From Desulfuromonadaceae bacterium (lineage in GTDB: Bacteria > Desulfobacterota > Desulfuromonadia > Geobacterales > Pseudopelobacteraceae): a stretch of 64,000 bases of DNA. This document shows, one piece after another, positions 12,894-33,470 of the stretch. Position numbers and translations under genes: made by a program. The stretch is taken from positions 248,001-312,000 of the forward strand of contig JAQTZV010000001.1 in NCBI GenBank assembly GCA_028687585.1, in the 5' to 3' direction. Numbering within the stretch: position 1 is the first letter of the stretch; each line of letters opens with the position of its first letter. The notes under the pieces were generated by a model that was not told where the DNA came from, ran no database searches, and was given only the letters and a program-made list of their open reading frames with translations.

Positions 12894-14903
12894 ATGGTGC
12901 AGGAGTTGTTTGCCCCGAGTTCCCTGATACTTATCGCCACGCTGCTGGCCGCTATTTCCGGTGTGCCGTTGTTATTACCCTGGCTGCTGCCTGCCGCACG
13001 GGCCCAGTTGTTGTCAGTTGCTGTTCTGCTTGCCGCCGCATGCACCGGCTTGACCGGCACGGTCCTGCTACTCCTCTCTGGCAGCACGACACTGTTTGAA
13101 CTTGCCTGGACGCTGCCGTTCGGTCCGGCCCGGTTTGGTGTTGATCCGCTCTCCGCCTGGTTTCTTCTCCCCATTTTTTTCATCTCCGGCTGCGCCGCAC
13201 TCTATGCGCGTTCCTACTGGCACGCCGATCACCATTGTGACACGGTGCGCAAGGTGACCTTCTTTTTCGGCGTGATGACCGCCAGTATGAGCGCTGTTGT
13301 GCTGGCTCGTGACGGAATTAGTTTCCTGTTTGCCTGGGAGATCATGGCGCTCTCTGCCTACTTTCTTGTCTCCGCTGAAGATGAAAAGCCGGAGGTCAAC
13401 GAAGCCGGCACCCTCTACATGATTACCACCCACACCGGGACGCTCGGCCTGTTTGCCCTCTTTCCGCTATTGAATCTGCTGAGCGGTTCCTGGCTGTTTC
13501 CCGCTCCGGCGTCCATACATGCTTCTTCCGGATTGTCTACGGCAGTTTTCCTGGCTGCCCTGTTTGCTTTCGGTATGAAGGCCGGTATCATGCCGCTTCA
13601 TATCTGGCTTCCGTCGGCCCACGCCAATGCCCCCAGTCATATCTCCGCAGCCATGTCGGGGGTGATTCTTAAGATCGGGGTGTATGGACTGATACGAACG
13701 CTCTCGTTCTTCCACGATATACCGCTCTGGTGGGGCGGCTCGGTACTGACCCTCGGGGCTGTTTCCGGAGTGGCGGGCGTTGCCTTTGCGATTGGACAGC
13801 ACGATCTGAAACGGTTGCTGGCGTATCATAGTATCGAAAACATCGGCATCATCTTTATGGGACTGGGGGTGGCGCTGGTCGGGCAAAAGGTCGGTTCTCC
13901 TGCGATGATGCTGCTCGGCATGAGCGGGGCGCTGCTGCATGTTCTCAATCATGCCACCTTTAAAGCGCTGCTCTTTCTGGGAGCCGGTTCAGTCATTCAT
14001 GCTACCGGCAGTCGTGAAATCGATCTGATGGGGGGGGTAGCACGACGACTCCCGTATACCGCCCTGTTATTCGGGATCGGCGCGGTGGCTATCTGCGGCC
14101 TGCCGCCGCTCAACGGGTTTGTCAGCGAGCTGTTGATATACCTCGGTCTCTTTCAGGGAATTCAGGGCGAGGGGTGGGCGGCAGCAGCTGCAGCATTGGC
14201 GGCGCCGGCGCTGGCACTGGTTGGCGGGTTGGCGGTCGCCTGCTTTGTCAAAGTGTACGGCATCGTATTTTTGGGAGTACCTCGCGCAGGGGCGTATGCG
14301 CCACGCCACGAGGCTGGGTGGCAGATGCTGCTGCCGATGCTGCTGCTGGGACTGCTCTGTCTTGCCATCGGTCTGGCGCCAGGAGCGGTGACCAGGCCGC
14401 TGCAGCTGGTCAGTCTGTCGATCCTTCCCGCAGCGGTCAGAACAGAGGGACTCCCGCTAAAGGAGCTGCTGCCGACGACGATGATTTCGCTTTCCGGGGT
14501 GCTGCTGCTCGTTCTCATCTCGATTGTTGCCGTCTGGTATCGCCGTCGCCTGGCGGGGAGTGTCTCCAGCGAAACCGTCACCTGGGGGTGCGGCTATCAA
14601 CGTCCGGCACCCCGAATGCAATACAGCGCATCATCGTTTGCAGAGATGCTGACGTCTATTTTTGCGTTTGTTCTTAAACCGCACTGTCACCAACCGGAAG
14701 GAATCACCGGACTTTTCCCCCGTACGTCTCGTTTTTTCAGCCATGTCCCGGAAGCGGTGCTGGAACTGGTGTACACTCCGGCCCTGGAGCGTCTCTATGA
14801 ACGTTTCCTTCCGATCCGCCGTATGCAGAACGGTATCCTGCAGCAGTATGTCCTCTATATACTGATAACGCTGGTCGTACTTTTTTTGAGTGATTACCGG
14901 TAG
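12894..14903 (+). CDS. Ehr-1 antiporter-like subunit A (HyfB/NuoL-like)
   Basis: 669-residue membrane protein of the Mrp/NuoL/HyfB family with about 14-16 membrane helices. Residues of the ion pathway are kept: Glu in AWEIMALSAY, Lys in FGMKAGIMPLHIWLP, Lys in SGVILKIGVYG, the QHDLKRLLAYHSIENIGII helix, and Lys in LNHATFKALLFLGAG. The C-terminal GCGYQRPAPRMQYS segment is typical of HyfB-type rather than NuoL proteins. It is the first of two such genes in tandem. Predicted role is proton or sodium translocation in a hydrogenase-like membrane arm. Confidence 0.9.
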   Translation: MVQELFAPSSLILIATLLAAISGVPLLLPWLLPAARAQLLSVAVLLAAACTGLTGTVLLLLSGSTTLFELAWTLPFGPARFGVDPLSAWFLLPIFFISGCAALYARSYWHADHHCDTVRKVTFFFGVMTASMSAVVLARDGISFLFAWEIMALSAYFLVSAEDEKPEVNEAGTLYMITTHTGTLGLFALFPLLNLLSGSWLFPAPASIHASSGLSTAVFLAALFAFGMKAGIMPLHIWLPSAHANAPSHISAAMSGVILKIGVYGLIRTLSFFHDIPLWWGGSVLTLGAVSGVAGVAFAIGQHDLKRLLAYHSIENIGIIFMGLGVALVGQKVGSPAMMLLGMSGALLHVLNHATFKALLFLGAGSVIHATGSREIDLMGGVARRLPYTALLFGIGAVAICGLPPLNGFVSELLIYLGLFQGIQGEGWAAAAAALAAPALALVGGLAVACFVKVYGIVFLGVPRAGAYAPRHEAGWQMLLPMLLLGLLCLAIGLAPGAVTRPLQLVSLSILPAAVRTEGLPLKELLPTTMISLSGVLLLVLISIVAVWYRRRLAGSVSSETVTWGCGYQRPAPRMQYSASSFAEMLTSIFAFVLKPHCHQPEGITGLFPRTSRFFSHVPEAVLELVYTPALERLYERFLPIRRMQNGILQQYVLYILITLVVLFLSDYR

Positions 14904-14926
14904 TAGCTGACAGATGAGGTTTCCGC

Positions 14927-16969
14927 ATGCCCGCACCTCTCGACATAGCCGGTTTTTCGGTGCTGCTGCTCCTGGTGCTGGCCGTAGCTGCGCCGCTTCT
15001 CCGGTCGGTTCGCACGCTCCAGATTACTCTTGCGTTTTCTTTGGCTGCGGTGGCATCCATGGCTGCAGTAGTAGCGGGGGGGATGACAGTGGCAGATGGT
15101 TCAGTTGCCTCTGCAGCCATGACTCTTGGTATCCCGGGACTCCCCTTTCATCTGCGCCTTGACCCGCTGGCCGGTTTCTTTCTGGTCGTAATCGGCCTTA
15201 TGGGCTTTTTCGTTTCGATCTATTCGATCGGCTACGTCAAGGGGTATGGCGGCCAGCGCTCGATGACGCAGATGATCTGTTTTTACACGCTCTTTCTGGC
15301 CGGTATGCTGCTGGTGGTGCTGGCGGATGATGCCTATTTCTTTCTGGTGGCGTGGGAGTTGATGGCGGCTGCCTCATATTTTCTGGTCATGTATGAAGAT
15401 GAAAAGGGGGAAAACCGGCGCGCCGCTTTTCTGTATCTGCTGATCGCCCATGTCGGGGCGCTTGCTATTCTGCTGGCCTTCGGCGTCATGGCGGGGCAGA
15501 GCGGCCGGCCGGTCTTCGACGGCTACACCTTCGATGCCATGCGCACGGCACAGCTCACTCCCGGCTGGGCTGCGGCCGCCTTCTTTCTGGCCTTTTTCGG
15601 TTTTGCCGCCAAGGCCGGTGTTATCCCGCTGCATGTCTGGCTGCCGGAGGCGCATCCGGTAGCTCCTTCCAATATCTCGGCCCTGATGAGCGGCGTCATG
15701 CTCAAAACTTCCATCTACGGCATCTGCCGCTTTGCCTTTGACTTTATCAAAATTTTCCCCTGGTGGTGGGGGGGGATCGTGCTGGTACTGGGACTGATCT
15801 CGGCGGTCATGGGAGTGCTGTATGCCCTGATGCAGCACGATCTGAAGCGCCTTCTGGCCTATCACTCGGTTGAAAATATCGGCATCATCCTGATCGGACT
15901 GGGGCTGTCGATGATATTTGCCGCCTTTCATCTGCCGACTCTGGCCGCTCTGGCGCTGGTTGCCGCCCTGTATCACACCCTCAACCATGCCGTGTTCAAG
16001 GGGCTGCTCTTCATGGGTGCCGGGGCGGTGCTGCACGCCACTCACGAGCGCAACATGGAGGAGATGGGCGGGCTGATCCATCGCATGCCATGGACGGCAC
16101 CGCTCTTTCTGGTCGGCTGTGTCTCCATCTCGGCACTCCCCCCCTTCAACGGCTTTGTCTCGGAATGGCTGACCTTTCAGGCTTTCCTGCTCTCACCATC
16201 GCTGCCGCATCCACTGTTGAAGCTGCTGATCCCGTTGGGGGCTGCGATGCTGGCACTGACCGGGGCACTGGCTGCGGCCTGCTTCGTCAAGGTCTTCGGA
16301 GTCGTCTTTCTGGGGCAGTGGCGCGGTCACCAGAAGCCTGAGCGCATCCATGAAGTTGGTCCGTCAATGCGTGCCGGTATGCTGCTGGCGTCAATTTCCT
16401 GCCTGCTCCTCGGAATTTTTCCGACCTGGGTCATCGGATGGCTCGATACAATCCCGGAACAGCTCTGTGGCGGCAGGTTGGCAGAGTCTGCCGGAAAATT
16501 CGGCTGGATGTGGCTGACGCCGATAGCTCACGGGCGCGCCTCCTATTCCGGTCCGATGGTTTTTATCGGGATTCTGGCGGTGGTCGCTGTGACCTGGCTG
16601 CTGCTGCATGCCCACGCGACCAGCTCCCGGCGTGTACCTGTCTGGGATTGCGGTTTTGCCAGGTTGACACCCCGCATGCAGTATACCGCCTCCGCCTTTT
16701 CCATGCCGATCCGGCGGGTCCTCGGTTTTCTGTTTGCGGTGCGCGAACAGGTAGAGGTCGTACCGCACACCAACCACCCCTCCCTCCCCGGCAGCCTGCA
16801 GTATCGTCTACGGATCAGAGATCGCTTCTGGAACTGGCTCTACGTGCCGCAAGGTGATGCGGCCTACTGGATAGCGCGCCAGGTCGGCAGGCTGCAGCAG
16901 GGTCGCATCCAGATTTACCTGCTCTATTCCTTTGTAACCCTGATTGTTCTGCTGGTGTTTCTGGGATGA
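14927..16969 (+). CDS. Ehr-1 antiporter-like subunit B (HyfB/NuoL-like)
   Basis: 680-residue paralogue of the preceding subunit, also HyfB-like. Ion-path residues are intact: VAWELMAAASYFLV, FAAKAGVIPLHVWLPEAHP, SGVMLKTSIYG, QHDLKRLLAYHSVENIGII and LNHAVFKGLLFMGAG. The C-terminus has DCGFARLTPRMQYT in place of GCGYQ. The divergence from subunit A shows two distinct pumping modules rather than a recent duplication. The stop overlaps the next ATG by 4 bp. Confidence 0.9.
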   Translation: MPAPLDIAGFSVLLLLVLAVAAPLLRSVRTLQITLAFSLAAVASMAAVVAGGMTVADGSVASAAMTLGIPGLPFHLRLDPLAGFFLVVIGLMGFFVSIYSIGYVKGYGGQRSMTQMICFYTLFLAGMLLVVLADDAYFFLVAWELMAAASYFLVMYEDEKGENRRAAFLYLLIAHVGALAILLAFGVMAGQSGRPVFDGYTFDAMRTAQLTPGWAAAAFFLAFFGFAAKAGVIPLHVWLPEAHPVAPSNISALMSGVMLKTSIYGICRFAFDFIKIFPWWWGGIVLVLGLISAVMGVLYALMQHDLKRLLAYHSVENIGIILIGLGLSMIFAAFHLPTLAALALVAALYHTLNHAVFKGLLFMGAGAVLHATHERNMEEMGGLIHRMPWTAPLFLVGCVSISALPPFNGFVSEWLTFQAFLLSPSLPHPLLKLLIPLGAAMLALTGALAAACFVKVFGVVFLGQWRGHQKPERIHEVGPSMRAGMLLASISCLLLGIFPTWVIGWLDTIPEQLCGGRLAESAGKFGWMWLTPIAHGRASYSGPMVFIGILAVVAVTWLLLHAHATSSRRVPVWDCGFARLTPRMQYTASAFSMPIRRVLGFLFAVREQVEVVPHTNHPSLPGSLQYRLRIRDRFWNWLYVPQGDAAYWIARQVGRLQQGRIQIYLLYSFVTLIVLLVFLG

Positions 16970-17910
16970 GCCTCCATCCGTTTGTCATAGAACTGCTTCA
17001 GTTCGCTCTGCTGCTTGGTCTGGCGCCGGCCTTTGCCGGGTGGGTGAAAGTCCTGAAGTGCCGGGTTCAGGGGCGAACGGCGCCCGGGATTTTGCAGCCG
17101 TATCGCGACATCCGGCGGCTGTTCGGCAAGGATATCGTTCTGGCTGAAAACGCATCGTGGCTCTTCCGTTTCACCCCCTATCTGACATTCGGGGTGACAG
17201 CAATTGCGGCCGGGATTATTCCGCTGATTTCGGTTGACCTGCCGCTGTCGGCAACTGCTGACGTCATCGCTCTTGTCATGCTGTTCGGGATCGTGCGCTT
17301 CTTTACGGCACTGGCCGGGATGGATATCGGCACCGCCTTTGGCGGTATGGGTTCGAGCCGCGAGATGACCATTGCATCACTGGCAGAACCGGCCATGCTG
17401 ATGGCGATTTTTACAGTCTCGCTGGCGAGCAATTCCACCTCGCTGACCCAGATGGTTTCGGTCATGGCGCACTCGGAATTTGTCATCCGTCCGTCTCTCG
17501 CCTTCGCCCTGGCGGCTTTTATTCTGATTGCTCTGGCAGAAACCGGCCGCATTCCGGTTGACAACCCTGCTACCCATCTGGAACTGACCATGATTCATGA
17601 GGCGATGATCCTCGAATATTCGGGGCGTCACCTGGCCCTCATCGAATGGGCCGGCATGATGAAGTTGACGCTCTTTTTTGCCCTTGGAATTGCCGCTTTC
17701 TGTCCCTGGGGCATCGCGACCGGTGGTGATACCGGCTTGCTGCTGCTTGCGTTTGTGGCGCTGTCCGCCAAACTGGTCGTCGGGGCATGTGTCATGGTGC
17801 TGATCGAAACCGGTCTGGCCAAGTTGCGCATTTTTCGTCTCCCTGAGTTTCTGGGGAGTGCCTTCCTGCTGGCAACACTCGGTATGATCGCCTTCTTTAT
17901 TCTGGAGTAA
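16966..17910 (+). CDS. Ehr-1 NuoH-like subunit (HyfC/HycD type)
   Basis: 314-residue membrane protein of the NuoH/HycD family, about eight helices. Hallmarks are GRTAPGILQPYRDIRRLFGKD near the N-terminus, AFGGMGSSREMTIASLAEPA in the middle and RIPVDNPATHLELTMIHEAMILEYSG, the Glu-rich loop that forms part of the quinone-site-like chamber in complex I and couples redox and pumping modules. It starts inside the preceding stop codon (ATGA). Confidence 0.9.
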   Translation: MSLHPFVIELLQFALLLGLAPAFAGWVKVLKCRVQGRTAPGILQPYRDIRRLFGKDIVLAENASWLFRFTPYLTFGVTAIAAGIIPLISVDLPLSATADVIALVMLFGIVRFFTALAGMDIGTAFGGMGSSREMTIASLAEPAMLMAIFTVSLASNSTSLTQMVSVMAHSEFVIRPSLAFALAAFILIALAETGRIPVDNPATHLELTMIHEAMILEYSGRHLALIEWAGMMKLTLFFALGIAAFCPWGIATGGDTGLLLLAFVALSAKLVVGACVMVLIETGLAKLRIFRLPEFLGSAFLLATLGMIAFFILE

Positions 17911-17914
17911 CACC

Positions 17915-18580
17915 ATGACCCATACCATAGCAACCCAGATAAACAGCCTGCTGGCGGCCCTGATACTCCTGAGCGCCTTTGCCCTGCTGGCCCAGCGCAA
18001 GATCATGGGGTTGGTGCATATTTTTGCCTGGCAGGGTTTGTTACTGGCGCTGAGCACGGCGGTAATCGGCTATGCCAGCGGTGAACACCATCTGTATATC
18101 TCCTCACTCCTGACGCTCGGAATGAAGGTCATTCTGCTCCCCTATATCCTCTACAAGCTGGTGCACAAGCTGAAGATCCATCGCGATATCGAGGCGGTTG
18201 TCAATGTTCCCACTACCATGCTGCTCGGCATCATACTGGTCGTCTTCAGTTATCACCTGACGGCACCGATCCGTGAACTCTCCAATCTGATGACCCGCTC
18301 CACCCTCGCGGTCGCATTGGCGACGATCATGCTGGGGATGTTGATGATGGTGACCCGCCGCCATGCCGTGACGCAGATTCTGGGATTTCTGGCCATGGAG
18401 AACGGCCTGTTCTTTGCCGCCACCAGTGCCACCTACGGCATGCCGATGGTGGTGGAGCTGGGAGTGGCGCTCGATCTCCTTATTGCGGCCTTTATCTTCG
18501 GTATCTTTTTCTTTCATATCAATACCACCTTTGAGAGTCTCGATGTGGAGCAGATGGCAAAATTGAAGGAGACGGACTAA
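17915..18580 (+). CDS. Ehr-1 HyfE-like (NuoK-related) subunit
   Basis: 221-residue membrane protein of the HyfE family, with a C-terminal part related to NuoK. It has six or seven hydrophobic segments; the conserved Glu in GFLAMENGLFFAAT corresponds to the buried Glu of NuoK. The C-terminal HINTTFESLDVEQMAKLKE tail is typical of HyfE. It starts 4 bp after the NuoH-like gene and ends 4 bp before the next one. Confidence 0.88.
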   Translation: MTHTIATQINSLLAALILLSAFALLAQRKIMGLVHIFAWQGLLLALSTAVIGYASGEHHLYISSLLTLGMKVILLPYILYKLVHKLKIHRDIEAVVNVPTTMLLGIILVVFSYHLTAPIRELSNLMTRSTLAVALATIMLGMLMMVTRRHAVTQILGFLAMENGLFFAATSATYGMPMVVELGVALDLLIAAFIFGIFFFHINTTFESLDVEQMAKLKETD

Positions 18581-18584
18581 CGCC

Positions 18585-20033
18585 ATGATCCTCCTCTCTC
18601 TCCTCGGCATATCGATCCTGGTGGCGCTGATCCTCGCCTTTATCGGCGACTGGCGCTATGCACCGGAGGTCAATATCGGCGGCTCGCTGCTGACCTTTAT
18701 CGTGTCGCTGGTTCTGGCGCTGCAGGTCTATCACGAGGGGGGGAGCATTTCCGGCTCTGCCTACTTCTTTGTCGATTACCTGAATATCTCCCTGGTCGTC
18801 CTGACCACCCTGGTTTCAACCACAACTGCCGTCTTCAGCCGCCGCTACATGCGGGTCGAGCGGGAACATGGACGGGTCGGCCACTGGCGGATGCGTTTTT
18901 ATCACGCCATGTTTCAGCTCTTCATCTTCGCCATGCTGATCGCTCTGGTGACCAACAATTTCGGCGTGCTCTGGATCTCGATGGAGCTGGCGACGCTGGC
19001 GACTGTCCTGCTGGTGTCGCTCTACCGGACCCCGACCGCAATCGAGGCGGCCTGGAAGTATTTCATACTCTGCGGCGTCGGCATCGCCCAAGCACTCTTC
19101 GGTACGGTGCTGCTCTACTTTGCCGCCGAACGGGTACTGGGGGCGGGGGGTAATGCACTGCTATGGACCAACCTGAGCCGGGTCAGCAGTCAGCTCGACC
19201 CGACCGTCATGCGCCTCGCCTTTGTCTTTCTGATGGTCGGCTACGGCACCAAGGCCGGTCTGGTGCCGCTGCATAACTGGCTTCCGGATGCCCATAGCGA
19301 GGGGCCGACCCCGGTTTCGGCGGTGCTCTCCGGTCTGCTGCTCAATATCGCCCTGTACGCCCTGATCCGCTGCAAAGCGCTGGTTGATGGTTCCCTCGGC
19401 TCCGGGTTTGCCGGAAACATCATGATGGGTTTCGGCCTCCTCTCACTGCTGACGGCGGCTTTCTCCATGCTGCGGCAAAAAGACATCAAGCGCCTCTTTG
19501 CCTACTCCTCCATTGAGCATATGGGGATCGCCACCTTTGCCTTCGGTCTCGGCGGGCCGATCGCCACATTCGGCGGAGTTCTCCATATGATCGTCCATAG
19601 TCTGGCCAAATCGGCCACCTTTTTCAGTGTCGGCCATGCTGCCCAGATGCACGGCACCCAGGAAATGTCCCATATCCGCGGTCTGATCAGGGGTAATCCG
19701 GCGGTCGGGTGGGGGATGTTTCTGGGGGTGATGGCGCTGGCCGGCATGCCCCCCTTCGGGATCTTTACCAGTGAATTCCTGATCCTTACCGCCACCATGA
19801 AGGATGCGCCGTACCTCGCGCCGCTGCTGCTGCTGGGCCTGGCAGTGGCATTTGCCGCGCTGTTTCGCAAGGTGCAGCCGATGGTGGCAGGGCTCGTTCC
19901 GTCCGGACAAAAACCTCTGACAGCCGCCAACATACCGGTCTTTCTACATCTGGTTCTCGTGCTGCTTCTCGGGATCTACCTCCCCGGATTTCTGGCGAAC
20001 TGGTTTCATCTGGCGGTGGAGATATTGAAATGA
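18585..20033 (+). CDS. Ehr-1 HyfF-like (NuoN/NuoM-related) subunit
   Basis: 482-residue antiporter-like subunit of the HyfF type. The Glu helix reads WISMELATLATVLLVSLYR, followed by WKYFILCGVGIAQALFG as in HyfF. The first channel Lys is present in VGYGTKAGLVPLHNWLPDAHSEGPTPVSA, the second position is Asn (LLLNIALYALIR), and a Lys is present in VHSLAKSATFFSVGHA. It is the third pumping-type subunit of Ehr-1. An imperfect inverted repeat separates it from the large subunit gene. Confidence 0.9.
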   Translation: MILLSLLGISILVALILAFIGDWRYAPEVNIGGSLLTFIVSLVLALQVYHEGGSISGSAYFFVDYLNISLVVLTTLVSTTTAVFSRRYMRVEREHGRVGHWRMRFYHAMFQLFIFAMLIALVTNNFGVLWISMELATLATVLLVSLYRTPTAIEAAWKYFILCGVGIAQALFGTVLLYFAAERVLGAGGNALLWTNLSRVSSQLDPTVMRLAFVFLMVGYGTKAGLVPLHNWLPDAHSEGPTPVSAVLSGLLLNIALYALIRCKALVDGSLGSGFAGNIMMGFGLLSLLTAAFSMLRQKDIKRLFAYSSIEHMGIATFAFGLGGPIATFGGVLHMIVHSLAKSATFFSVGHAAQMHGTQEMSHIRGLIRGNPAVGWGMFLGVMALAGMPPFGIFTSEFLILTATMKDAPYLAPLLLLGLAVAFAALFRKVQPMVAGLVPSGQKPLTAANIPVFLHLVLVLLLGIYLPGFLANWFHLAVEILK

Positions 20034-20044
20034 CTATAAAAGAC

Positions 20045-20159
20045 GTCCCCTCTCCATGAGAGAGAGGGCCAGGGTGAGGGGGGAGGCGTTGCTATATTTG
20101 GCGCTGTTGCCTTCCCCTCATCCGGCCTTTGGCCACCTTCTCCCTCAGGGAGAAGAGAC
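20045..20159. repeat. Imperfect REP-like inverted repeat inside the Ehr-1 operon
   Basis: Two GC-rich arms, about 20045-20081 and 20114-20159, are imperfect reverse complements of each other: the left begins GTCCCCTCTCC and the right ends GGGAGAAGAGAC. About 32 nt separate them. Each arm also folds on itself (for example CGGCCTTTGGCC and CTCCCTCAGGGAG in the right arm). It resembles the dispersed CCCTCTCC-type intergenic palindromes of many genomes. It fills most of the 162-bp gap and could affect RNA stability or readthrough. Confidence 0.7.
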
Positions 20160-20195
20160 TAACGAAAAAATTATTCAGATAACAGGATAGGTATC

Positions 20196-21773: not shown

Positions 21774-21784
21774 GGGAGTCACCA

Positions 21785-22291
21785 ATGCTTAAAATTCTGC
21801 ACCAGATATTCCGAACCGGGGTGGTGACCGAACCGTTGCCGGAAGCGATTGAAGCTGAGCTGGAGGTGGTGGGGTGTCATCTTGAAAAAACCATCCGGCG
21901 GCGTTTTCACCGCAGTCTGGTGATCCGCGAAGTGGATGCCGGTTCGTGCAACGGCTGCGAACTGGAGATCATCGCCATGAACAACCCGATCTACAACTGC
22001 GAACGCTATGGCATTCAGTTCACGGCGTCGCCCCGTTTTGCCGACATGCTGCTGGTGACCGGGCCGGTGTCGGTTAACATGGAGATAGCTCTCAAGCGTA
22101 CCTATGATGCCACCCCCACCCCCAAGCTGGTAGTGGCGGTTGGCGACTGCGGCTGCAATGGCGGGATTTTCGGAGAAAGCTATGCCTCACTCGGCGCGGT
22201 TGCCAACGTCATTCCGGTGGATGCTCATATCCCCGGCTGCCCGCCGACACCGGTACAACTGCTGAATGGTATCCTGCAGTTGATCGGCTGA
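21785..22291 (+). CDS. Ehr-1 NuoB-like FeS small subunit (HyfI type)
   Basis: 168 residues. The four Cys expected to bind the proximal [4Fe-4S] cluster (N2-like) are present: C55 and C58 in AGSCNGCE, C122 in VGDCGCNGG (with an extra C124), and C152 in IPGCPP. The N-terminus is slightly extended and carries an Arg-rich helix (IRRRFHRSL). No ferredoxin-like subunit is encoded in this operon, so how electrons reach this cluster is not evident. It is the last gene of the operon; no intrinsic terminator is visible after it. Confidence 0.92.
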   Translation: MLKILHQIFRTGVVTEPLPEAIEAELEVVGCHLEKTIRRRFHRSLVIREVDAGSCNGCELEIIAMNNPIYNCERYGIQFTASPRFADMLLVTGPVSVNMEIALKRTYDATPTPKLVVAVGDCGCNGGIFGESYASLGAVANVIPVDAHIPGCPPTPVQLLNGILQLIG

Positions 22292-22308
22292 TAATTCAGA
22301 AAAAAGAA

Positions 22309-25055: not shown

Positions 25056-25172
25056 ATGAAAAGAAGAATGGTAGCAACCATCAGTTACGGCAACGGGTGT
25101 CCTGCAGTCAAAGGGAATAATGAAGCGGCCCGGGCAAAAAACCGTCGTGATGAGTTGAAACTTGTCAAGTAA
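25056..25172 (+). pseudogene. Fragment of pal (OmpA-like) C-terminus, 38 codons
   Basis: ATG 25056 (GAAGGGG 8 nt upstream) to TAA 25170-25172 encodes 38 residues. It contains ATISYGNGCPAV followed by NNEAARAKNRRDELKLVK, which matches the end of peptidoglycan-associated lipoprotein/OmpA domains (ISYGKERP... NEAxWAKNRRDE). Only this last strand and helix are present, so it cannot fold as a peptidoglycan-binding domain. It is in frame, has a ribosome-binding site and overlaps the start of the DUF815 gene by 11 bp, so it may be translated as a leader peptide. Confidence 0.6.
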
Positions 25173-26061: not shown

Positions 26062-26172
26062 TCTATAATCAAGCACTGTTTTTTAATTGACACGTATACA
26101 CTCACGGTTCACTATTTCTTCCCGTTGAAAATTTTGTGAATTTTTTTAGTACTATTTCAAGGAGTTCTTTGT

Positions 26173-28170
26173 ATGTATTCAGCTCTGCAGAGCGCTCTTG
26201 ATCCTGCGCTCGTAGCGCTCTTCTCTGCGCTTGTTCTCGGTTGTGCCGGAATTCCCGGTCTGTTTCTGCGAAAACCGGGCACCGGGCAGATTATTTCTGT
26301 GACCGCAACCCTTCTGGCAGCTCTGGCTGGTGTTCCTGCCGCCCTGCAGCTGCTCTTCAGTAATACCACAACGACGTATCTGCTCCAGTGGAACCTCCCG
26401 TTCGGCCCGTGCGAGCTTGTCATTGATCCGCTTTCAGCATTCTTTCTTATTCCCGTTTTCCTCGTGTCCGCTGCCGGTTCTCTCTTTGCCGTCGGCTATT
26501 GGCCTGCTGTCGAACATCCCGCTACCGAACGTGGGCTGACTTTTTTTTACGGCCTGTTGGCCTCGTCTATGGCTATTCTGCTCACCGCTCGAAATGGCGT
26601 TTTCTTTATCATGGTGTGGGAAATTATGGCGCTTTCCGCCTACTTCCTGCTGGTAACGGAGCATGAACGGGAGGAGGTCAGACGTGCCGGGATTGTCTAT
26701 CTGATCGCGACGCACATCGGCACTGCGGCGCTGTTTGTCTATTTTTCACTGCTGGCCGCGCAGAGCGGTTCATTTCAGCTCCCGGCAGCCGGTTCTTTAT
26801 CAGCGCTTTCTCCATTCGCTGCGATTATGGTACTGGCCGCGTTTACCGGTTTTGGTGCGAAGGCCGGCATCATGCCGTTTCATACCTGGCTCCCCTCGGC
26901 ACATGCCAATGCTCCAAGCCACGTATCGGCGCTCATGTCCGGAGTCATGCTGAAGATGGGGCTGTATGGCATCTTCCGTACCCTGACATTTTTTCACGAT
27001 CCGCCACTGCTCTGGGGGGCGGTTCTGACAGCCTGCGGTATTACTTCAGCTCTGCTGGGGATCGTCTTTGCGGTGGCCCAGCGGGATATGAAACGTCTGT
27101 TGGCCTGCAGCAGTATTGAGAATATCGGCATTATCACTACCGGTCTCGGAGTTGCCCTGCTGGGGGTGTCCAGTCACAATAATACCCTGGTGTATCTCGG
27201 CATGGCGGGTGCCCTGCTTCATATTCTCAATCACAGCTTCTTCAAGCCGTTACTGTTTCTCGGTTCCGGGGTTATTATACATGCCAGCGGCACGCGTGAG
27301 ATGAATCTGATGGGGGGGCTTGGCAAAGCTATGCCTCGTGTGGCAGCGCTTTTTCTTGTCGGAACTGTTGCCATCTGCGGGATTCCCCCGTTGAACGGTT
27401 TCATCAGTGAATTTCTACTCTACCTCGGTTTTTTCAAGCAGTTAAAAGGACACAGTCTGACCGCACTGGTTTTTCTGGCTCCGCTGCTGGCGCTGGTTGG
27501 CGGCCTGGCCGTCGTAGCGTTTACCAAGCTGTACAGTTCAGTTTTTCTTGGCACTCCCCGCAGTTCCGCGGCGGCTCATCCTCACGAAGCGGGGATGACG
27601 ATGCTGGTGCCGATGGCGTTTTTTGCCCTGCTCTGCCTGCTGATCGGCATTGCACCGCAGCAGGCTCTGCGTCTTGTTTCCCCAGCGATAACGGCATGGT
27701 ATCCTCTGCTTTTGTCAACATCAGTTGCCGCAGAATATGAAACTGTTTTGGGAAGACTTTCTCTGGCGGCTCTGCTTCTATTGTCGGCAGCGGTTGTCGT
27801 TGCGCTGCTCTGGCGGTGGCGACTGGGGAAAATGGCGGTCTCTTCCGCTTCAACCTGGGGATGTGGCTATCAGCGCGGTACGGCTCGTATGCAGTACAAC
27901 GGGACATCCTTTTCCGAACTTGCCGTTTCCGTATTCGATGGTATTATGCGTCAGCGGATTGAACGCCCGGGGTTGACCGGCCTTTTTCCCGGCGGTTCGC
28001 GCTGCAGTGACCGTCCAACGGAAACGCTCCTGGAGCGGATTATTACGCCGCTTTTTGCCGGGACCGGGATGCTCTTCGGCTTTTTACATCGCCTGCAGCA
28101 TGGCTTGATGCATTTTTATATGCTCTACATCTTTGCCACACTTTTTATTCTGATGCTTTGGGCAAACTGA
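26173..28170 (+). CDS. Ehr-2 antiporter-like subunit (HyfB/NuoL-like)
   Basis: 665-residue HyfB-like protein with GGAG 8 nt before ATG 26173. It is closer in pattern to Ehr-1 subunit A than to B: MVWEIMALSAYFLL, FGAKAGIMPFHTWLPSAHANAPSHVSALMSG, QRDMKRLLACSSIENIGII, LNHSFFKPLLFLGSG and the C-terminal GCGYQRGTARMQYN. All channel Glu and Lys positions are kept. Ehr-2 has only this one large antiporter-like subunit. The 26062-26172 gap contains TTGACA at 26087 but no good -10 box at standard spacing. Confidence 0.9.
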   Translation: MYSALQSALDPALVALFSALVLGCAGIPGLFLRKPGTGQIISVTATLLAALAGVPAALQLLFSNTTTTYLLQWNLPFGPCELVIDPLSAFFLIPVFLVSAAGSLFAVGYWPAVEHPATERGLTFFYGLLASSMAILLTARNGVFFIMVWEIMALSAYFLLVTEHEREEVRRAGIVYLIATHIGTAALFVYFSLLAAQSGSFQLPAAGSLSALSPFAAIMVLAAFTGFGAKAGIMPFHTWLPSAHANAPSHVSALMSGVMLKMGLYGIFRTLTFFHDPPLLWGAVLTACGITSALLGIVFAVAQRDMKRLLACSSIENIGIITTGLGVALLGVSSHNNTLVYLGMAGALLHILNHSFFKPLLFLGSGVIIHASGTREMNLMGGLGKAMPRVAALFLVGTVAICGIPPLNGFISEFLLYLGFFKQLKGHSLTALVFLAPLLALVGGLAVVAFTKLYSSVFLGTPRSSAAAHPHEAGMTMLVPMAFFALLCLLIGIAPQQALRLVSPAITAWYPLLLSTSVAAEYETVLGRLSLAALLLLSAAVVVALLWRWRLGKMAVSSASTWGCGYQRGTARMQYNGTSFSELAVSVFDGIMRQRIERPGLTGLFPGGSRCSDRPTETLLERIITPLFAGTGMLFGFLHRLQHGLMHFYMLYIFATLFILMLWAN

Positions 28171-28189
28171 TGTTTACCTGGGAGCGACC

Positions 28190-29098
28190 ATGACAAACAG
28201 TCTCATTCACATATTTCTGGCCCTCACCATGCCGCCGCTGCTGTTAGGGGTTATCGGCAAAACGAAAGCCGCGTTTGCCGGGAGAGTCGGTGCGCCGTTT
28301 TTACAGCCGTATTACGATTTAAGTCGTCTGCTGCAGAAAGGGACGGTCTTCAGTACTACAACCAGCTGGGTGTTCCGTGCCGGTCCGATAGTCGCACTGG
28401 CAACTACAGCGGTTGCCGCACTGTTGATCCCCTTTGGTGCCCATCCATCGCCGATCTCTTTTGACGGCGACATGATCCTCTACGCCTATCTGTTTGCTCT
28501 GGGGCGTTTTTTTACCATGGCGGCTGCTCTGGACACCGGTTCAAGTTTTGAAGGTATGGGGTCAGCCCGTGAGGCCACCTACTCCTGCCTTGCCGAACCG
28601 ACCCTCTTTTTTGCATTGATAACCCTGTCGCGTCTGTCCGGTTCGCTTTCACTTTCTCCGATGCTGGTAAATATCAGCCTGGGTGTCTGGCTCGATACCG
28701 GTGCCGCACTGCTGCTCCTGATTGGTGGCATGTTCATCGTGCTGCTGGTCGAAAACTGCCGTATTCCGTTCGATGACCCAAACACACATCTAGAACTGAC
28801 CATGATCCACGAGGTGATGGTGCTTGATCACAGTGGTCCGGCTTTCGGCATTATTCAGTATGCCGCAGCACTCAAACTGTTTGTGCTGGGCGCCTTTTTT
28901 GTCCATCTGGCGCTGCCGTATGCAACCGGTAATCCGCTGCTTGACTGGGGGCTTTTCGTGATTTCCATGCTGGAGCTGGCAGTTGTTATCGGAATTGTAG
29001 AATCGGTCATGGCGCGGCTGCGCCTGATTCGTATACCGCAACTACTTGTTGCCGCTACTATCCTGGCGGCATTTTCCACTCTGCTGGTCATCAGGTGA
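28190..29098 (+). CDS. Ehr-2 NuoH-like subunit (HyfC/HycD type)
   Basis: 302-residue NuoH/HycD family membrane protein. It has GRVGAPFLQPYYDLSRLLQKG near the N-terminus, SSFEGMGSAREATYSCLAEP in the middle and RIPFDDPNTHLELTMIHEVMVLDHSG in the coupling loop, parallel to the Ehr-1 protein but clearly diverged. It follows the antiporter subunit by 19 bp. The role is to link the FeS/large-subunit module to the ion-pumping subunits. Confidence 0.9.
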   Translation: MTNSLIHIFLALTMPPLLLGVIGKTKAAFAGRVGAPFLQPYYDLSRLLQKGTVFSTTTSWVFRAGPIVALATTAVAALLIPFGAHPSPISFDGDMILYAYLFALGRFFTMAAALDTGSSFEGMGSAREATYSCLAEPTLFFALITLSRLSGSLSLSPMLVNISLGVWLDTGAALLLLIGGMFIVLLVENCRIPFDDPNTHLELTMIHEVMVLDHSGPAFGIIQYAAALKLFVLGAFFVHLALPYATGNPLLDWGLFVISMLELAVVIGIVESVMARLRLIRIPQLLVAATILAAFSTLLVIR

Positions 29099-29102
29099 TG
29101 CC

Positions 29103-29744
29103 ATGTTTTCTTTAGCCGATCAAATTCTCGTTCTGGTACTGCTGATAAACTTTATCTCGCTCGGCACCAGCCGTCTGATATTTTCCATCCGTGCGGTTGC
29201 CGTTCAAGGAGTCCTCCTCGGAATTCTGCCCGGTTTAATGCATCCGTTTTCCTGGCATCTGGTTGCGATTACGGTCGTCATAATTGCGGTCAAGGGTTTT
29301 GTGATCCCGCTGCTGCTCAGTCGTGCCGTCCGCTCTGCAGAGATCAAGCGTGAGTTTGAACCGTTTCTGGGGTATGTTCCGACGCTGCTGCTTGGTGCGG
29401 TCTTTACGGCCCTTTCATTCGGTTTTGCCGGCAAGCTGCCGATGCTGCCGGATCATCAGAATTACATGTTTGTTCCGGCTTCGATAGCCACACTGATGAC
29501 CGGTTTTCTTGTGCTGACGACGCGCCGCAAGGCGATTTCGCAGGTTATCGGTTATCTTGTTCTTGAGAACGGCATATTCATCTTCGGCCTGCTGCTGGCG
29601 GAGGCGATGCCGATTATGGTTGAAGCGGGGGCGCTGCTCGATCTGCTGGTCGGAACCTTTGTCATGGGTATTGTTATCAACCAGATCAGACGTGAATTCT
29701 CTTCGCTGGATACCTCGCTTCTGACCTCACTGAAAGAGGAGTAG
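29103..29744 (+). CDS. Ehr-2 HyfE-like (NuoK-related) subunit
   Basis: 213 residues from ATG 29103; an in-frame ATG at 29046 lies inside the preceding gene and adds a non-family leader, so I reject it. The conserved buried Glu is in YLVLENGIFIFGL, and the tail INQIRREFSSLDTSLLTSLKEE is typical of HyfE. It ends 4 bp before the next gene, whose AAAGAGGAG ribosome-binding site lies within this coding sequence. Confidence 0.88.
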   Translation: MFSLADQILVLVLLINFISLGTSRLIFSIRAVAVQGVLLGILPGLMHPFSWHLVAITVVIIAVKGFVIPLLLSRAVRSAEIKREFEPFLGYVPTLLLGAVFTALSFGFAGKLPMLPDHQNYMFVPASIATLMTGFLVLTTRRKAISQVIGYLVLENGIFIFGLLLAEAMPIMVEAGALLDLLVGTFVMGIVINQIRREFSSLDTSLLTSLKEE

Positions 29745-29748
29745 ATTA

Positions 29749-31182
29749 ATGTTTGCCGCCCTGATAATCCTCCCGCTCATCGGAGCCGCTGTAACCTGGC
29801 TGATCCCGTATGATCGACTGCGTCCCAAGGTGCTGGCGCTCTTTGCTTTTGCCCATTTGGGCCTCACCATTCAGCTCCTGACAGTCACTCCGCCCGAATC
29901 GGCCGGTGGCTGGTTTCACCTGGATGCACTCGGGAAAATCGTGCTTCTCAGTACCAGCATCCTCTTCTTTACCTGCGCGCTCTACTCTGTCGGCTACCTT
30001 TTTTATCGCCGGGAACGCTCCAACCGCGTGCTCTGTATCGGACTTCTTGTCTGCCTGTCGGCCGCCTCACTGGTTACTATCACCCATCATCTGGGGCTCA
30101 TGTGGGTGGCGCTTGAAACCACAACCATATCGATGGCCCCGCTGATCTATTTTAACCGTAATGCCCGCTCGATCGAGGCAACCTGGAAATACCTGCTGAT
30201 CTGCTCGGTCGGAGTTGCTCTGGCATTAATCGGCCTCTACTTTCTGGCCTATGCCACGATTGTGGCCCAGGTGGAACCGTCACTGCTGCTTGATGACCTG
30301 ATGCGTGATGCCGGAAAGCTTTCCTCCGGCTGGGTTCATGCCGCTTTTGTTTTTCTGCTGGTCGGCTTCGGTACGAAGATGGGGTTGGCGCCGCTTCATA
30401 CCTGGAAGCCGGATGCCTACGGCGAGGCTCCCGGTCTGGTCGGGGCACTGCTGTCAGGCGGTCTGGTCAATCTGGCCTTTTTGGCGCTCGTTCGCGTATA
30501 TCAGATTTGTCTGGCGACCAAAGAGATCGCGTTTTTTCAAAATGCCCTGATTGTTATGGGGCTGTTTTCGATGATCATCGCTGCGATATTTATGGCCCGG
30601 CAGGCTGATTTCAAGAGGATGCTGGCGTACTCGAGTGTTGAGCATGTCGGTATCATGGCGGTAGCACTCGGATTGGGCGGCACGGCAATTTTCGGCGCAC
30701 TGTTCCACGTTCTTGCCAACGGTCTGACCAAGGGGATTTTGTTTCTCTCTTCCGGGAACATCCATCGCTCCTATAACAGCAAAAGCACCGATCATGTGCG
30801 CGGCGCCCTGCGTCGCCTCCCCTGGTCGGGAGGGATTTTTCTGGCAGGATTTATCGCCATCACCGGATCTCCGCCGTTTGCCCCGTTTATCAGCGAATTC
30901 ACCATTATCAGCAGTGCCTTCATTCAGGGGCAGATGCTGGTCGGTACAGTATTCCTGATTTCTCTTACGGTTATTTTTATCGGTATGGCTCTGACTGTTC
31001 TTCCGATGGTGATGGGAGAAGCTCCCGCAGACAGCGAGACAACCTCGTACCGCGACTCGATCTGGACGGTCGGGCCGCCACTGTTTCTGCTGCTGCTGAT
31101 ATTTCTGCTCGGTGTCTGGATACCGGAGCCACTGATGGCAATACTGCGTGACGCATCAGCGCTTCTGGAGGTACGCTCATGA
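29749..31182 (+). CDS. Ehr-2 HyfF-like (NuoN/NuoM-related) subunit
   Basis: 477-residue antiporter-like subunit. The Glu helix is WVALETTTISMAPLIYF followed by WKYLLICSVGVALALIG; the channel Lys is in VGFGTKMGLAPLHTWKPDAYGEAPG; the second position is Asn (GLVNLAFLALVR), as in the Ehr-1 counterpart; and a Lys is present in LANGLTKGILFLSSG. Sharing the Asn substitution with Ehr-1 supports descent of both operons from a common HyfF-type ancestor. The large subunit gene overlaps its stop by 4 bp. Confidence 0.9.
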   Translation: MFAALIILPLIGAAVTWLIPYDRLRPKVLALFAFAHLGLTIQLLTVTPPESAGGWFHLDALGKIVLLSTSILFFTCALYSVGYLFYRRERSNRVLCIGLLVCLSAASLVTITHHLGLMWVALETTTISMAPLIYFNRNARSIEATWKYLLICSVGVALALIGLYFLAYATIVAQVEPSLLLDDLMRDAGKLSSGWVHAAFVFLLVGFGTKMGLAPLHTWKPDAYGEAPGLVGALLSGGLVNLAFLALVRVYQICLATKEIAFFQNALIVMGLFSMIIAAIFMARQADFKRMLAYSSVEHVGIMAVALGLGGTAIFGALFHVLANGLTKGILFLSSGNIHRSYNSKSTDHVRGALRRLPWSGGIFLAGFIAITGSPPFAPFISEFTIISSAFIQGQMLVGTVFLISLTVIFIGMALTVLPMVMGEAPADSETTSYRDSIWTVGPPLFLLLLIFLLGVWIPEPLMAILRDASALLEVRS

Positions 31183-32699
31183 GTTTCGGCATGAAAACCT
31201 TCTATAATGGCACTTCGTTTTTGCGTGGTGATATACCGATGCCGGATAACGACTCGTTCTTTCAGTCTGTTTTGGATGCTATTAGCGCGGGGTGGCGCGT
31301 CTGCTCCTATTTTGGTGTTCCGAATGCCGAGGGAGCGACTCTCTACTGCATCATGTCCGCCCGTGCCGGAAGAGGTGTCCTCGGGATTTCAGCCACAACG
31401 GTCGGGCGCACTTTTCCGTCGCTTGCGGTCGTCTGTCCACAACTGCATCTGTATGAACGGGAAATTGCCGAACAATGTCTCGTGCGTCCGGAAGGGCACC
31501 CCTGGTTCAAACCGGTGCGTTTTCAAAAGCCTCTCTGTGCGGGCGATGGTTTCTGGAGTGCCACTGATGGCGGTGGTCTGCTCCCGGCAGTGATGGACTT
31601 CTATCGCGTTGAAGGGGATGAAGTACATGAGGTTGCTGTGGGTCCGGTGCATGCCGGGATCATAGAGCCGGGTCACTTTCGCTTTCAGTGCCACGGTGAA
31701 GAGGTTTTTCATCTGGAAATTGCGCTCGGCTTTCAGCATCGCGGCATCGAACGGGCGTTAATAGGGGCCCCGACCCCCCGGACCATGCACCAGATGGAAA
31801 CAATCGCCGGTGATACAACGGTCGCACACGGTCAGGCCTATTGCATGAATATGGAGTCACTGGGGGGAATCTTTGCTTCACCACGGGCAGAAACAGTGCG
31901 CGGAATAGCTCTGGAACTCGAGCGATTGGCCAATCATGCCGGGGATCTGGGTGCGATTGCCGGGGATGTCGGCTATCTGCCAACGTCGTCCTTCTGTGGC
32001 CGGATACGGGGTGATTTTCTCAATATGACTGCACTTTTGTGCGGCAGCCGTTTCAGCCGCGGCCTGCTCAGGCCGGGTGGGATCGGCTATGATTGCGATG
32101 CTTCAATTGCGGATGAATTGTACAAACGGCTGCAATCTGCGCGGGAAGATCTCGCCGGAGCTGTCGAGTTGCTCTGGAATACTCCCTCGGTTATGGCGAG
32201 GCTGGAAGATGTCGGTATTGTCTCTGAAAAAGATGCCCGCGAGATTGGCCTGGTCGGTCCTGCCGCCCGGGCGTGCGGCCTGAACCGCGATGTCCGTCGT
32301 GATCACCCGTTTGGAATATTCCGGATGAGCCAGATACCGGTGGTTACCGCGACCACCTGTGATGTTGCTGCCCGCACGCGACTCCGTTGGCTGGAGGCTG
32401 AACGCTCAATGGATTTTATCGATGAACAGGTGCGGCATCTGCCGCGTGGCGGCTATCGGAACCAGCCGAAGGGGGTTGCGTCAGATCGTTGTGCTGTTGC
32501 ACTGACCGAAGGTTGGCGTGGTGAAATATGTCACGTTGCCTTGACCGATGAACGTGGCTGTTTTGAACGATACAAAATCGTTGATCCCTCTTTTCATAAC
32601 TGGAACGGCCTGGGGCTTTCCCTGCGCAATCAGCAGATTTCCGACTTTCCGCTCTGTAACAAAAGCTTCAACCTGTCGTACTGCGGGTTTGATTTATAA
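31179..32699 (+). CDS. Ehr-2 large subunit (HyfG/NuoCD-like), NiFe ligands lost
   Basis: 506 residues. Residues about 25-115 are NuoC-like and 145-506 NuoD/hydrogenase-like, with GPVHAGIIEPGHFRFQ. The NiFe ligand site RxCGxC is replaced by TIAGDT (208-213), so the two Cys positions are Ala and Thr. This differs from the Ser/Ser of Ehr-1, meaning the ligands were lost or replaced independently, or diverged later. The C-terminus ends in PLCNKSFNLSYCGFDL with C493 and C502 but no DPCxxC. It should act as an electron- or quinone-handling docking subunit, not a hydrogenase. Confidence 0.9.
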   Translation: MSFGMKTFYNGTSFLRGDIPMPDNDSFFQSVLDAISAGWRVCSYFGVPNAEGATLYCIMSARAGRGVLGISATTVGRTFPSLAVVCPQLHLYEREIAEQCLVRPEGHPWFKPVRFQKPLCAGDGFWSATDGGGLLPAVMDFYRVEGDEVHEVAVGPVHAGIIEPGHFRFQCHGEEVFHLEIALGFQHRGIERALIGAPTPRTMHQMETIAGDTTVAHGQAYCMNMESLGGIFASPRAETVRGIALELERLANHAGDLGAIAGDVGYLPTSSFCGRIRGDFLNMTALLCGSRFSRGLLRPGGIGYDCDASIADELYKRLQSAREDLAGAVELLWNTPSVMARLEDVGIVSEKDAREIGLVGPAARACGLNRDVRRDHPFGIFRMSQIPVVTATTCDVAARTRLRWLEAERSMDFIDEQVRHLPRGGYRNQPKGVASDRCAVALTEGWRGEICHVALTDERGCFERYKIVDPSFHNWNGLGLSLRNQQISDFPLCNKSFNLSYCGFDL

Positions 32700-32711
32700 A
32701 ATGGAGCCTGT

Positions 32712-33470
32712 ATGCTAAAAGCCATTATGGCACGTTTTCGCCAGGGGCATCGTACCATGAAGTATCCCGATGCCCCGCAGCCGTTACCGCCACGTTTTCG
32801 TGGTCTCCCGCTCATGGACGTAACCCGTTGTGACGATGGGTGCCGAGAATGCGCCGACGCCTGTCCATACGGAGCCATTTCCGCTTCTGGCTCTCTGACA
32901 CTTGATATGGGGAAATGCCTGTTCTGTGCCGACTGTGCTGTTGCGTGTCCGCATGATGCGCTCACGTTTTCAACCGATGCGCGCCTTGCAAGCCGCAGCC
33001 GCAAAGGTTTAACCGTTGTCGCCGGTGAACAGTATCAGCCGGGGGGGGCGCTGGAAGGTGAACTGTTGCGCCTGTTCGGCCGTTCTCTCAAGTTGCGTGA
33101 AGTCAGCGCCGGGGGTTGCAATGCCTGCGAGGCGGATACCAACGTGCTCTCCACTATCGGGTGGGATCTGGGTCGTTTCGGAATTCAGTTTGTCGCCAGT
33201 CCGCGTCACGCTGACGGCATGTTTGTGACCGGACCGGTCAGTGAAAACATGCGACTGGCTCTGCTTGATACGTATGCGGCAATTCCGGAACCGAAACTGG
33301 TTATCGTTGCCGGCGCCTGCGCGATCAATGGCGGGCCGTTCAAGGATCACGCCGAGGTTCATAACGGAGCTGATGGCTGTGTGCCGGTTGATCTCTACAT
33401 CCCCGGTTGTCCACCCAGTCCGTTGACGATACTGGATGGCTTGTTGCGGTTGGTTGATATTGTGCAATAA
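32712..33470 (+). CDS. Ehr-2 ferredoxin/NuoB-like fusion subunit
   Basis: 252 residues that join two subunits usually encoded separately. Residues 35-85 form a 2[4Fe-4S] ferredoxin domain: C40, C44, C47, C51 (spacing 3-2-3) and C69, C72, C75, C79 (2-2-3). Residues about 115-250 form a NuoB/HycG-type small subunit with C136 and C139 (GGCNACE), C203 (AGACAING) and C233 (PGCPP). In HyfH/HyfI, HycF/HycG or NuoI/NuoB these are two proteins. The fusion gives a three-cluster electron wire in one chain and is the likely electron entry of Ehr-2. Confidence 0.9.
   Translation: MLKAIMARFRQGHRTMKYPDAPQPLPPRFRGLPLMDVTRCDDGCRECADACPYGAISASGSLTLDMGKCLFCADCAVACPHDALTFSTDARLASRSRKGLTVVAGEQYQPGGALEGELLRLFGRSLKLREVSAGGCNACEADTNVLSTIGWDLGRFGIQFVASPRHADGMFVTGPVSENMRLALLDTYAAIPEPKLVIVAGACAINGGPFKDHAEVHNGADGCVPVDLYIPGCPPSPLTILDGLLRLVDIVQ

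Follow-up and report, generated by a model that had tools for sequence, protein, structure and literature searches.

Two Ehr-type membrane complexes without a NiFe site and with a complex I-like His-Asp pair, encoded next to each other in a Desulfuromonadaceae genome

Energy-converting-hydrogenase-related (Ehr) complexes are widespread, and the literature that we searched assigns them no tested reaction. We take EhrD to be one of the subunits of the Ehr of Geobacter sulfurreducens (GSU0739-0745). The subunits named in the available parts of two papers are EhrA-1, EhrA-2, EhrB, EhrC, EhrL and EhrS (PMC7894505, PMC13194489). Here we describe two complexes of this type, A and B, encoded in a 64,000-nucleotide stretch of the genome of a Desulfuromonadaceae bacterium (NCBI GenBank assembly GCA_028687585.1, contig JAQTZV010000001.1, positions 248,001 to 312,000; hereafter the window). 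Matched by subunit names rather than by sequence, the G. sulfurreducens Ehr has the same subunit types, likewise lacks NiFe ligands and has two EhrA antiporters, as B does if the product of the gene at 12894 is counted with it; the window differs in having a second, ferredoxin-less Ehr (A) in the operon. By sequence and fold, the closest solved structures are those of Escherichia coli formate hydrogenlyase and hydrogenase 4 (Hyc, Hyf), followed by membrane-bound hydrogenase and complex I; no chain named Ehr was among the solved-structure matches listed. A and B have the proximal-cluster ligand type of Hyc and Hyf (the best solved-structure match of the A small subunit is HycG of formate hydrogenlyase), but lack their four NiFe cysteines and C-terminal extension; relative to Hyf, A has no equivalents of HyfA, HyfD and HyfH, and in B a HyfH-like domain is fused to a HyfI-like one. 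Complex I has the same core, His38/Asp139 pair and channel residues as A and B. A further relative, Mbx/MBS of Pyrococcus, is a NiFe-less, group 4-like redox pump with a sulfur-reducing role.

An earlier note on the window, made from the DNA letters alone, had described 13 hydrogenase-like genes in two sets with a shared subunit order, and all 13 open reading frames (ORFs) are where it had placed them and are intact. Pfam and NCBIfam agree with the order: antiporter-, antiporter-, NuoH-, HyfE-, HyfF-, NuoCD- and NuoB-like for 12894-22291, and antiporter-, NuoH-, HyfE-, HyfF-, NuoCD- and NuoB-like for 26173-33470 (Table 1). In both complexes the Ehr-type core (large, small, NuoH-like, HyfE-like and antiporter subunits) is clustered together, and both are members of this known orphan type. 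The note had also held that the first NiFe ligand pair and the DPCxxC motif are lost from both, and alignment with E. coli HycE bears this out: at CGIC, A has SGDS and B has AGDT, and at DPCYSC, A has NQSYSG and B has NLSYCG, such that the four ligand columns read S, S, S, G in A and A, T, S, G in B. The FeS ligands and channel Glu and Lys residues are kept, again as the note had it.

To place these substitutions, we aligned 197 large subunits: 124 A-type, 46 B-type, 12 NiFe-bearing (selenocysteine being scored as Cys in six of them) and 15 others that are truncated, belong to other Ehr families or lack the DL end, and fall outside the A and B counts. A and B rows were defined by the DL end and NiFe rows by the four Cys, so these two features are circular, but the column at which the proteins end and all other residues are not. 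Among A proteins the ligand columns hold S 119, A 4, C 1; S 83, T 39, A 2; S 120, N 4; and G 124; among B proteins they hold A 43, V 1, S 1; T 40, S 4, A 1; S 46; and G 46. A single Cys thus occurs once in 170 proteins, at ligand 1, and never at the other ligand columns. D231, D275, D282, N513-K514-S515, Y520 and G522 (A numbering) are common to A and B, with D275 present in 44 of 45 B proteins. HycE carries a C-terminal extension that a protease, HycI, removes during maturation. All 170 A and B large subunits stop at the column of HycE R537, beyond which HycE continues for 32 residues, so they encode no C-terminal peptide past that column. In an unrooted quick tree with long branches, in which seven Hyc/Hyf-like NiFe rows were set against 100, the large subunits of both complexes fall outside the NiFe-bearing rows (SH-like approximate likelihood ratio test 100). 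This agrees with the NiFe-less Ehr type that the earlier note had recognised; of the tree comparison with true hydrogenases that it had called for, the Hyc/Hyf-like part is covered, whereas Ech, Mbh, Mbx and Nuo are absent from the tree.

Both clusters are under purifying selection. Ratios of nonsynonymous to synonymous substitution rates (dN/dS) are 0.03-0.17 in orthologous comparisons among relatives, which are rough values with dS up to 1.5; the A genes compared with those of locus L116 (32-46% identity) are paralogues and were kept out. These ratios argue against decay and bear on the view that Ehr complexes are non-functional hydrogenase relics kept by chance, as the available part of one paper states (PMC13194489). 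That view would accommodate the missing NiFe site and the missense mutations in two ehr genes that the same source reports from a 17-year culture, but it is contradicted by the selection data, and it also sits badly with the conserved pocket residues, with the near-universal presence of B among the searched relatives (54 of 58 genomes, own included; A is in 10) and with the detection of Ehr protein in the parts of another paper available to us (PMC7894505); we regard it as barely credible. The NiFe pocket has been rebuilt and maintained rather than eroded.

The rebuilt pocket resembles that of complex I at one pair of positions. We take His38, Asp139 and Tyr87 of Thermus complex I to be the quinone-site numbering. 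His38 and Asp139 correspond to His206 and Asp282 in A, each present in 124 of 124 proteins, and to His187 (44 of 45) and Asp263 (45 of 45) in B, where the Asp aligns without gaps. This Asp is present in all three complex I controls and absent from all 12 NiFe rows, which have Val (six), Phe (three) or Leu (three), and it is also absent from four NiFe-less rows that belong to two other Ehr families. The NuoB-like subunits of A and B have hydrogenase-type CxxC ligands, unlike complex I, where NuoB carries tandem Cys. Given that a complex I pair is kept together with hydrogenase-type ligands, A and B are intermediate between hydrogenase and complex I, and they lack defining features of both NiFe hydrogenase and complex I. 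A published title reportedly uses the phrase 'missing link' for such complexes. The pocket bears on how a hydrogenase pocket turned into the complex I quinone site. We did not find a division of Ehr into two types by the His-Asp pair, or their repeated pairing, in the openly licensed literature that we searched; the two types, the pocket and the pairing lead to testable predictions concerning the quinone-site residues, a built-in versus a docked donor, and one antiporter gene.

The two other NiFe-less families have large subunits with C-termini of the SFGLTIAGCAR and TFGLSNAECDR types, and occur at L220 (12903), L222 (12610), L229-L231, L233, L237 and L238. A Burkholderia multivorans plasmid that we had considered as a second A and B pair was set aside, since its second cluster belongs to the family with the SFGLTIAGCAR C-terminus. 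A Cys beside the Tyr87 column that was invariant in 11 sequences proved variable once more sequences were aligned (present in 92 of 124 A proteins).

The path by which electrons would reach the pocket is kept in both complexes and extended in B. The proximal-cluster cysteines (CxxC, C, CPP) are retained in both small subunits. The last B gene, which the earlier note had called NuoB-like, does encode a NuoB domain, but it is preceded by a NuoI/HyfH-like domain, making the protein a NuoI-NuoB fusion with eight Cys for two extra 4Fe4S clusters (C40, C44, C47, C51, C69, C72, C75 and C79). Both ferredoxin motifs are standard in 101 of 120 fusion homologues among the matches listed. Of the 44 B rows that we fetched, the full set of eight Cys is present in 32 and seven of them in one; C40, C47 and C79 are missing from the other 11, every one of which keeps C51, C69, C72 and C75. 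From the ligand pattern of two-cluster ferredoxins, we take this to be the loss of exactly one cluster, the outer one, corresponding to N6a of complex I; the cluster that is kept is the inner one, adjacent to the proximal cluster. The loss involves three changes on the tree. A has no ferredoxin-like domain at all.

Rows with loss of the outer cluster and retention of the domain are L095, L098, L111, L114, L115, L124, L126, L129, L252, L253 and L256, and one genome (G041) has two B operons 0.9 Mb apart (L094 and L095), one with eight ferredoxin Cys and one with the loss. We considered a tie between cluster loss and possession of A, since nine of 11 rows with loss but 14 of 32 full rows are in A genomes (Fisher p 0.04), and built nothing on it, with no more than three changes on the tree and two or three independent pairs behind these counts.

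We propose that A and B are redox-driven proton pumps rather than hydrogenases. In B, a ferredoxin-type donor would feed electrons to menaquinone, and A would use the same core with a docked donor; we would put the probability of this reading at about 0.5. B would be built from the antiporters encoded at 12894 and 26173, the HyfF-like pump encoded at 29749, the NuoH- and HyfE-like coupling subunits, the large subunit and the NuoI-NuoB fusion. Its electrons would run from the donor through its own two 4Fe4S clusters to the proximal cluster and on to menaquinone, which would be seated in the former NiFe pocket and handled by the complex I-like His-Asp pair. With the 12894 protein, B would have three antiporter-like subunits. 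A, with six genes, would share this core but have two antiporter-like subunits and lack a ferredoxin of its own, which means that the donor would have to dock directly on its small subunit; B relatives with only the inner extra cluster may represent a step between B and A. The acceptor, the donor, the direction of flow and the number and stoichiometry of the pumps are what we infer.

Several observations weigh against this proposal. The quinone-site His and Tyr are also found in NiFe rows, leaving the Asp as the only discriminating residue. Tyr occupies the Tyr87 column in both window proteins, in 12 of 12 NiFe rows and in 38 B rows (the others have His in four, Leu in one and Cys in one, with one uncounted), but in only 72 of 124 A proteins (Ala in 31, Phe in 20), so many A proteins do not have the strict complex I triad. 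The hydrogenase-type CxxC of the NuoB-like subunits is likewise unlike complex I. An AlphaFold model of the A large subunit has a predicted local distance difference test score (pLDDT) below 50 at 120-208 and 490-525, the region of interest, and was used for the fold only, its core being usable and its pocket region not. Since the outer cluster is gone from 11 of 44 B rows, that segment of the path is not essential to the B type. When B's own subunit next to A (L111-L113) is set aside, only two of 95 loci, many of which have short flanks, contain an ORF with a strict ferredoxin motif within 4 kb of A, which makes the donor of A a guess. Lastly, no gene for a donor or acceptor is recognisably linked to the complexes.

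The same anatomy is neutral as to direction, and the complexes could run in reverse, with proton-motive force lifting electrons from menaquinol or another carrier to ferredoxin for carbon assimilation. The available portions of one study report that the G. sulfurreducens Ehr protein is made and that its abundance is higher on formate than in hydrogen-containing conditions (PMC7894505), which would fit a need for low-potential electrons. A, however, has no ferredoxin module to deliver to, and nothing directly supports reverse flow, which we think unlikely. In a syntrophic coculture, Ehr was more abundant than in pure culture together with several other clusters, as far as the available text goes (PMC8691401); this abundance does not separate the readings of mechanism.

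Formate offers another candidate donor. A formate dehydrogenase might dock on the small subunit, with formate electrons passing to quinone and driving pumping. Such an arrangement has been proposed for Margulisbacteria and relatives, whose Ehr genomes contain fdhA and nuoEF-like genes (PMC6349859, in part); a formate dehydrogenase link was also suggested by the authors of the G. sulfurreducens study (PMC7894505, in part), and formate hydrogenlyase is the closest solved relative. On the other hand, no formate dehydrogenase gene was found among the 40 window ORFs scanned with Pfam or among ten scanned neighbour proteins of relatives, most of whose neighbours are unscanned, and the idea of hydrogen production from formate, which appears in the accessible part of the same study (PMC7894505), requires the NiFe site that is absent here. 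We consider this route unlikely. The scan of the 40 window ORFs also yielded no NADH module (NuoEFG), NuoA or CO dehydrogenase; the closest redox enzyme within the window is a gene of the flavin mononucleotide (FMN) oxidoreductase family at 7778-8878 (Pfam).

The variable Tyr87 column of A could also point to a pocket substrate other than quinone, such as a sulfur compound, as in archaeal Mbx/MBS, or inorganic carbon, as in CO2-converting NDH-1. In nine of the best 80 of 577 A loci, a gene for a SulP-type anion transporter lies directly upstream of A on the same strand (the upstream sequence reaches 1.5 kb or more in 49 of the 80, and two members of the SulP cluster were confirmed with Pfam); eight of the nine are from methanotrophs and one is from Thiomargarita, where the gene is 5' of the HyfF-like gene. 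In L133, a relative of the window, a SulP gene lies within the A gene set. Nevertheless, MBS chain 6u8y_L gives the large subunits lower scores than HycE, MbhL or Thermus complex I do, the His-Asp pair of complex I is retained, and the window ORFs that were scanned include no SulP gene. We consider a non-quinone substrate unlikely as well. The nine loci are L149, L153, L157, L159, L164, L166, L181, L188 and L196.

The division of the 13 genes into seven for A and six for B, as given in the earlier note, did not survive. The five antiporter-like proteins all retain the Glu of transmembrane helix (TM) 5, the Lys of TM7 and the Glu of TM12, and three have the TM8 Lys, whereas both HyfF-like proteins have Asn there, like E. 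coli HyfF; we assume that TM numbers can be taken over from complex I. In a 63-row antiporter tree, the clade of the 12894 protein joins that of the 26173 protein (100/99), while the 14927 protein falls among the remaining A antiporters together with E. coli HyfB/HycC (96/99), a grouping that carries no information on the active site because these are membrane subunits. Grouping of 12894 with the A antiporters was rejected in a 34-row approximately unbiased (AU) test (p 2e-6). Relatives with only B agree: in other families the order is regulator, antiporter, antiporter, NuoH, HyfE, HyfF, CD, NuoI-NuoB (in L102 and L104 one ORF separates the regulator from the antiporters), and among 11 stretches of the same genus that lack A, nine have the regulator and the 12894 homologue 5' of the 26173 homologue, without an intervening listed ORF in L246, L248 and L249. 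The remaining two, L240 and L245, have neither the regulator nor the 12894 homologue within the stretch, and L240 stops at a contig end. Together, the tree and the A-less relatives rule out a seven-gene complex A. By lineage, B comprises seven genes, including 12894, and A six (14927-22291), and in the window the six A genes are located between the two antiporter genes of B. The complex that the 12894 protein joins today is not readable from the sequence, and its place in B is part of the proposal above.

A and B are not the products of a recent duplication of one complex into two, which is ruled out by the 36% identity between their large subunits and by the occurrence elsewhere of A without a B match. 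In a survey of 277 genomes of the class, 33 have an A match of at least 43% identity (in G087 and G111 over partial length); 23 of the 33 also have a B match and ten do not. In 17 of the 23 genomes with both, own included, the large-subunit genes lie on the same contig 7-19 kb apart, and in G226 A and B are split by contig ends. The arrangement varies, with A within the B operon, B followed by A, or the two divergent, and in the tree the A complexes of Geobacterales and those of other families are different A subclades. In the 59-row A tree, the paired state is found in 11 of 51 labelled rows and requires at least six changes, which implies that pairing arose or was lost repeatedly; eight of the 59 rows were dropped by eye for short flanks, B was scored as absent on the basis of whichever stretch or search was available, and most cases of pairing come from one class and many from one genus. 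The recurrence of A next to B suggests that they have linked roles.

Outside the class, nine genomes have an A match of 59-65% identity, each with a single match at E 1e-50 or better when the three best candidates per genome are scored. The best 80 of 577 loci place A in Nitrospirota, methanotrophs, Gallionella relatives, rhizobia and Burkholderiales, and A is also encoded on plasmids; the fetched flanks of these 80 loci contain B genes only in L133 and L135. On a Variovorax plasmid, A follows B at a distance of 3.4 kb, and this B sits on a long branch. B is present in G. pickeringii and G. grbiciae, and G. sulfurreducens is absent by name among the matches listed (in both cases the best 120 of 8000). 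A suspected link to the low-oxygen-activated locus of Burkholderia was dropped, as neither 'hydrogenase' nor 'NADH' appears in the main text of any of the papers on that locus that we searched. Unrelated genes beside or between the subunit genes of some relatives (TonB receptor, UvrA, ClpB, chemotaxis, ATPase and hydrolase genes) were likewise dropped.

The earlier note had concluded from the two diverged versions that they serve two different electron-transfer couples. This is possible but not established: the differences between A and B, namely the ferredoxin-like domain and the number of antiporters, could equally mean the same couple at another ratio of protons to electrons. A and B might form one two-gear system, in which both would swap electrons between a low-potential carrier and menaquinone, and the 12894 antiporter and the EIIA-type regulator encoded upstream of it would shift the number of protons per electron by energy state. 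B would provide three pumps and a two-cluster wire, A two pumps and no wire, with the one-cluster B relatives between them, and the regulator would sense phosphoenolpyruvate via the phosphotransferase system (PTS). We see this as a long shot. The regulator gene, regA, encodes an IPH motif that is presumably the phospho-site of EIIA, and regA and a 12894 homologue occur in 22 of 45 fetched stretches holding a B large subunit. Genes of the HPr family, another PTS link, lie near A-type operons on Burkholderiales plasmids (L213, L219).

Table 1. Features of the Ehr region of the window
Feature	Coordinates	Strand	Basis
Regulator regA; helix-turn-helix and PTS EIIA/PtsN-like domain	12137..12886	+	Pfam HTH_17, PTS_EIIA_2
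HyfB/NuoL-like antiporter of B (Ehr) lineage, directly 5' of A genes	12894..14903	+	antiporter tree, AU test
HyfB-like antiporter, complex A	14927..16969	+	NCBIfam hydrogenase 4 subunit B above cut-off; channel residues
NuoH/HyfC-like subunit, A	16966..17910	+	PF00146; alignment with HyfC/HycD
HyfE-like (NuoK-like) subunit, A	17915..18580	+	NCBIfam hydrogenase 4 membrane subunit, below cut-off
HyfF-like antiporter subunit, A	18585..20033	+	NCBIfam hydrogenase 4 subunit F above cut-off
Spacer with palindromic element (like a repetitive extragenic palindrome, REP) within A gene set	20034..20195	.	sequence reading; stem 20047-20068 from terminator scan
NuoCD/HyfG-like large subunit, A; without NiFe ligands; H206/D282 pair; C-terminus NKSFNQSYSGNDL	20196..21773	+	
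NuoB/HyfI-like small subunit, A; one 4Fe4S cluster, without ferredoxin domain	21785..22291	+	PF01058; CxxC-type ligands
HyfB/NuoL-like antiporter, complex B	26173..28170	+	Pfam/NCBIfam, tree, channel residues
NuoH/HyfC-like subunit, B	28190..29098	+	PF00146
HyfE-like subunit, B	29103..29744	+	NCBIfam below cut-off; start corrected to ATG 29103
HyfF-like antiporter subunit, B	29749..31182	+	PF00361; best NCBIfam matches are hydrogenase 4 subunit F models, below cut-off
NuoCD/HyfG-like large subunit, B; without NiFe ligands; H187/D263 pair; C-terminus NKSFNLSYCGFDL	31179..32699	+	
NuoI-NuoB fusion small subunit, B	32712..33470	+	Fer4 and PF01058; NuoI/HyfH-type NCBIfam matches
Glyceraldehyde-3-phosphate dehydrogenase (long form), directly 3' of B	33474..34994	+	

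The A large-subunit gene starts at a GTG (20196), 3' of the palindromic spacer. Between the two clusters are ORFs for a LysM protein, a glycine-transporter-family protein, a small unscanned product and a DUF815 ATPase. Of the 43 B stretches that we fetched, 17 have the glyceraldehyde-3-phosphate dehydrogenase gene as the next ORF 3' of the fusion gene, and other lower-glycolysis genes, for enolase and phosphoglycerate mutase, are found near an Ehr on a Burkholderia multivorans plasmid. A scan for sigma-54 promoters gave no excess over shuffled sequences. The source genome (5.46 Mb) has two more, separate NuoD genes elsewhere. Further along the window, 44986-48558 encodes a 1190-residue tetratricopeptide repeat (TPR) protein with family 41 glycosyltransferase (O-GlcNAc transferase-like) domains.

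Five genomes of the same phylum encode Hyf/Hyc-like [NiFe] large subunits with in-frame TGA codons at both N-terminal Ni-ligand positions (U-GI-U, with DPCFSC kept): L223 (near 5.4-7.1 kb), L224, L226, L227 and L228. A sixth, L225, has TGA at the first position only. In the available parts of selenoproteome reviews, the only hydrogenase subunits listed are of the UxxC or CxxU type. A tRNA-Sec above the Rfam cut-off is present in five of the six TGA-bearing genomes, and a perfect inverted repeat lies 3' of the second TGA position in all six, its fold being no more stable than those of shuffled sequences in the four that were folded.

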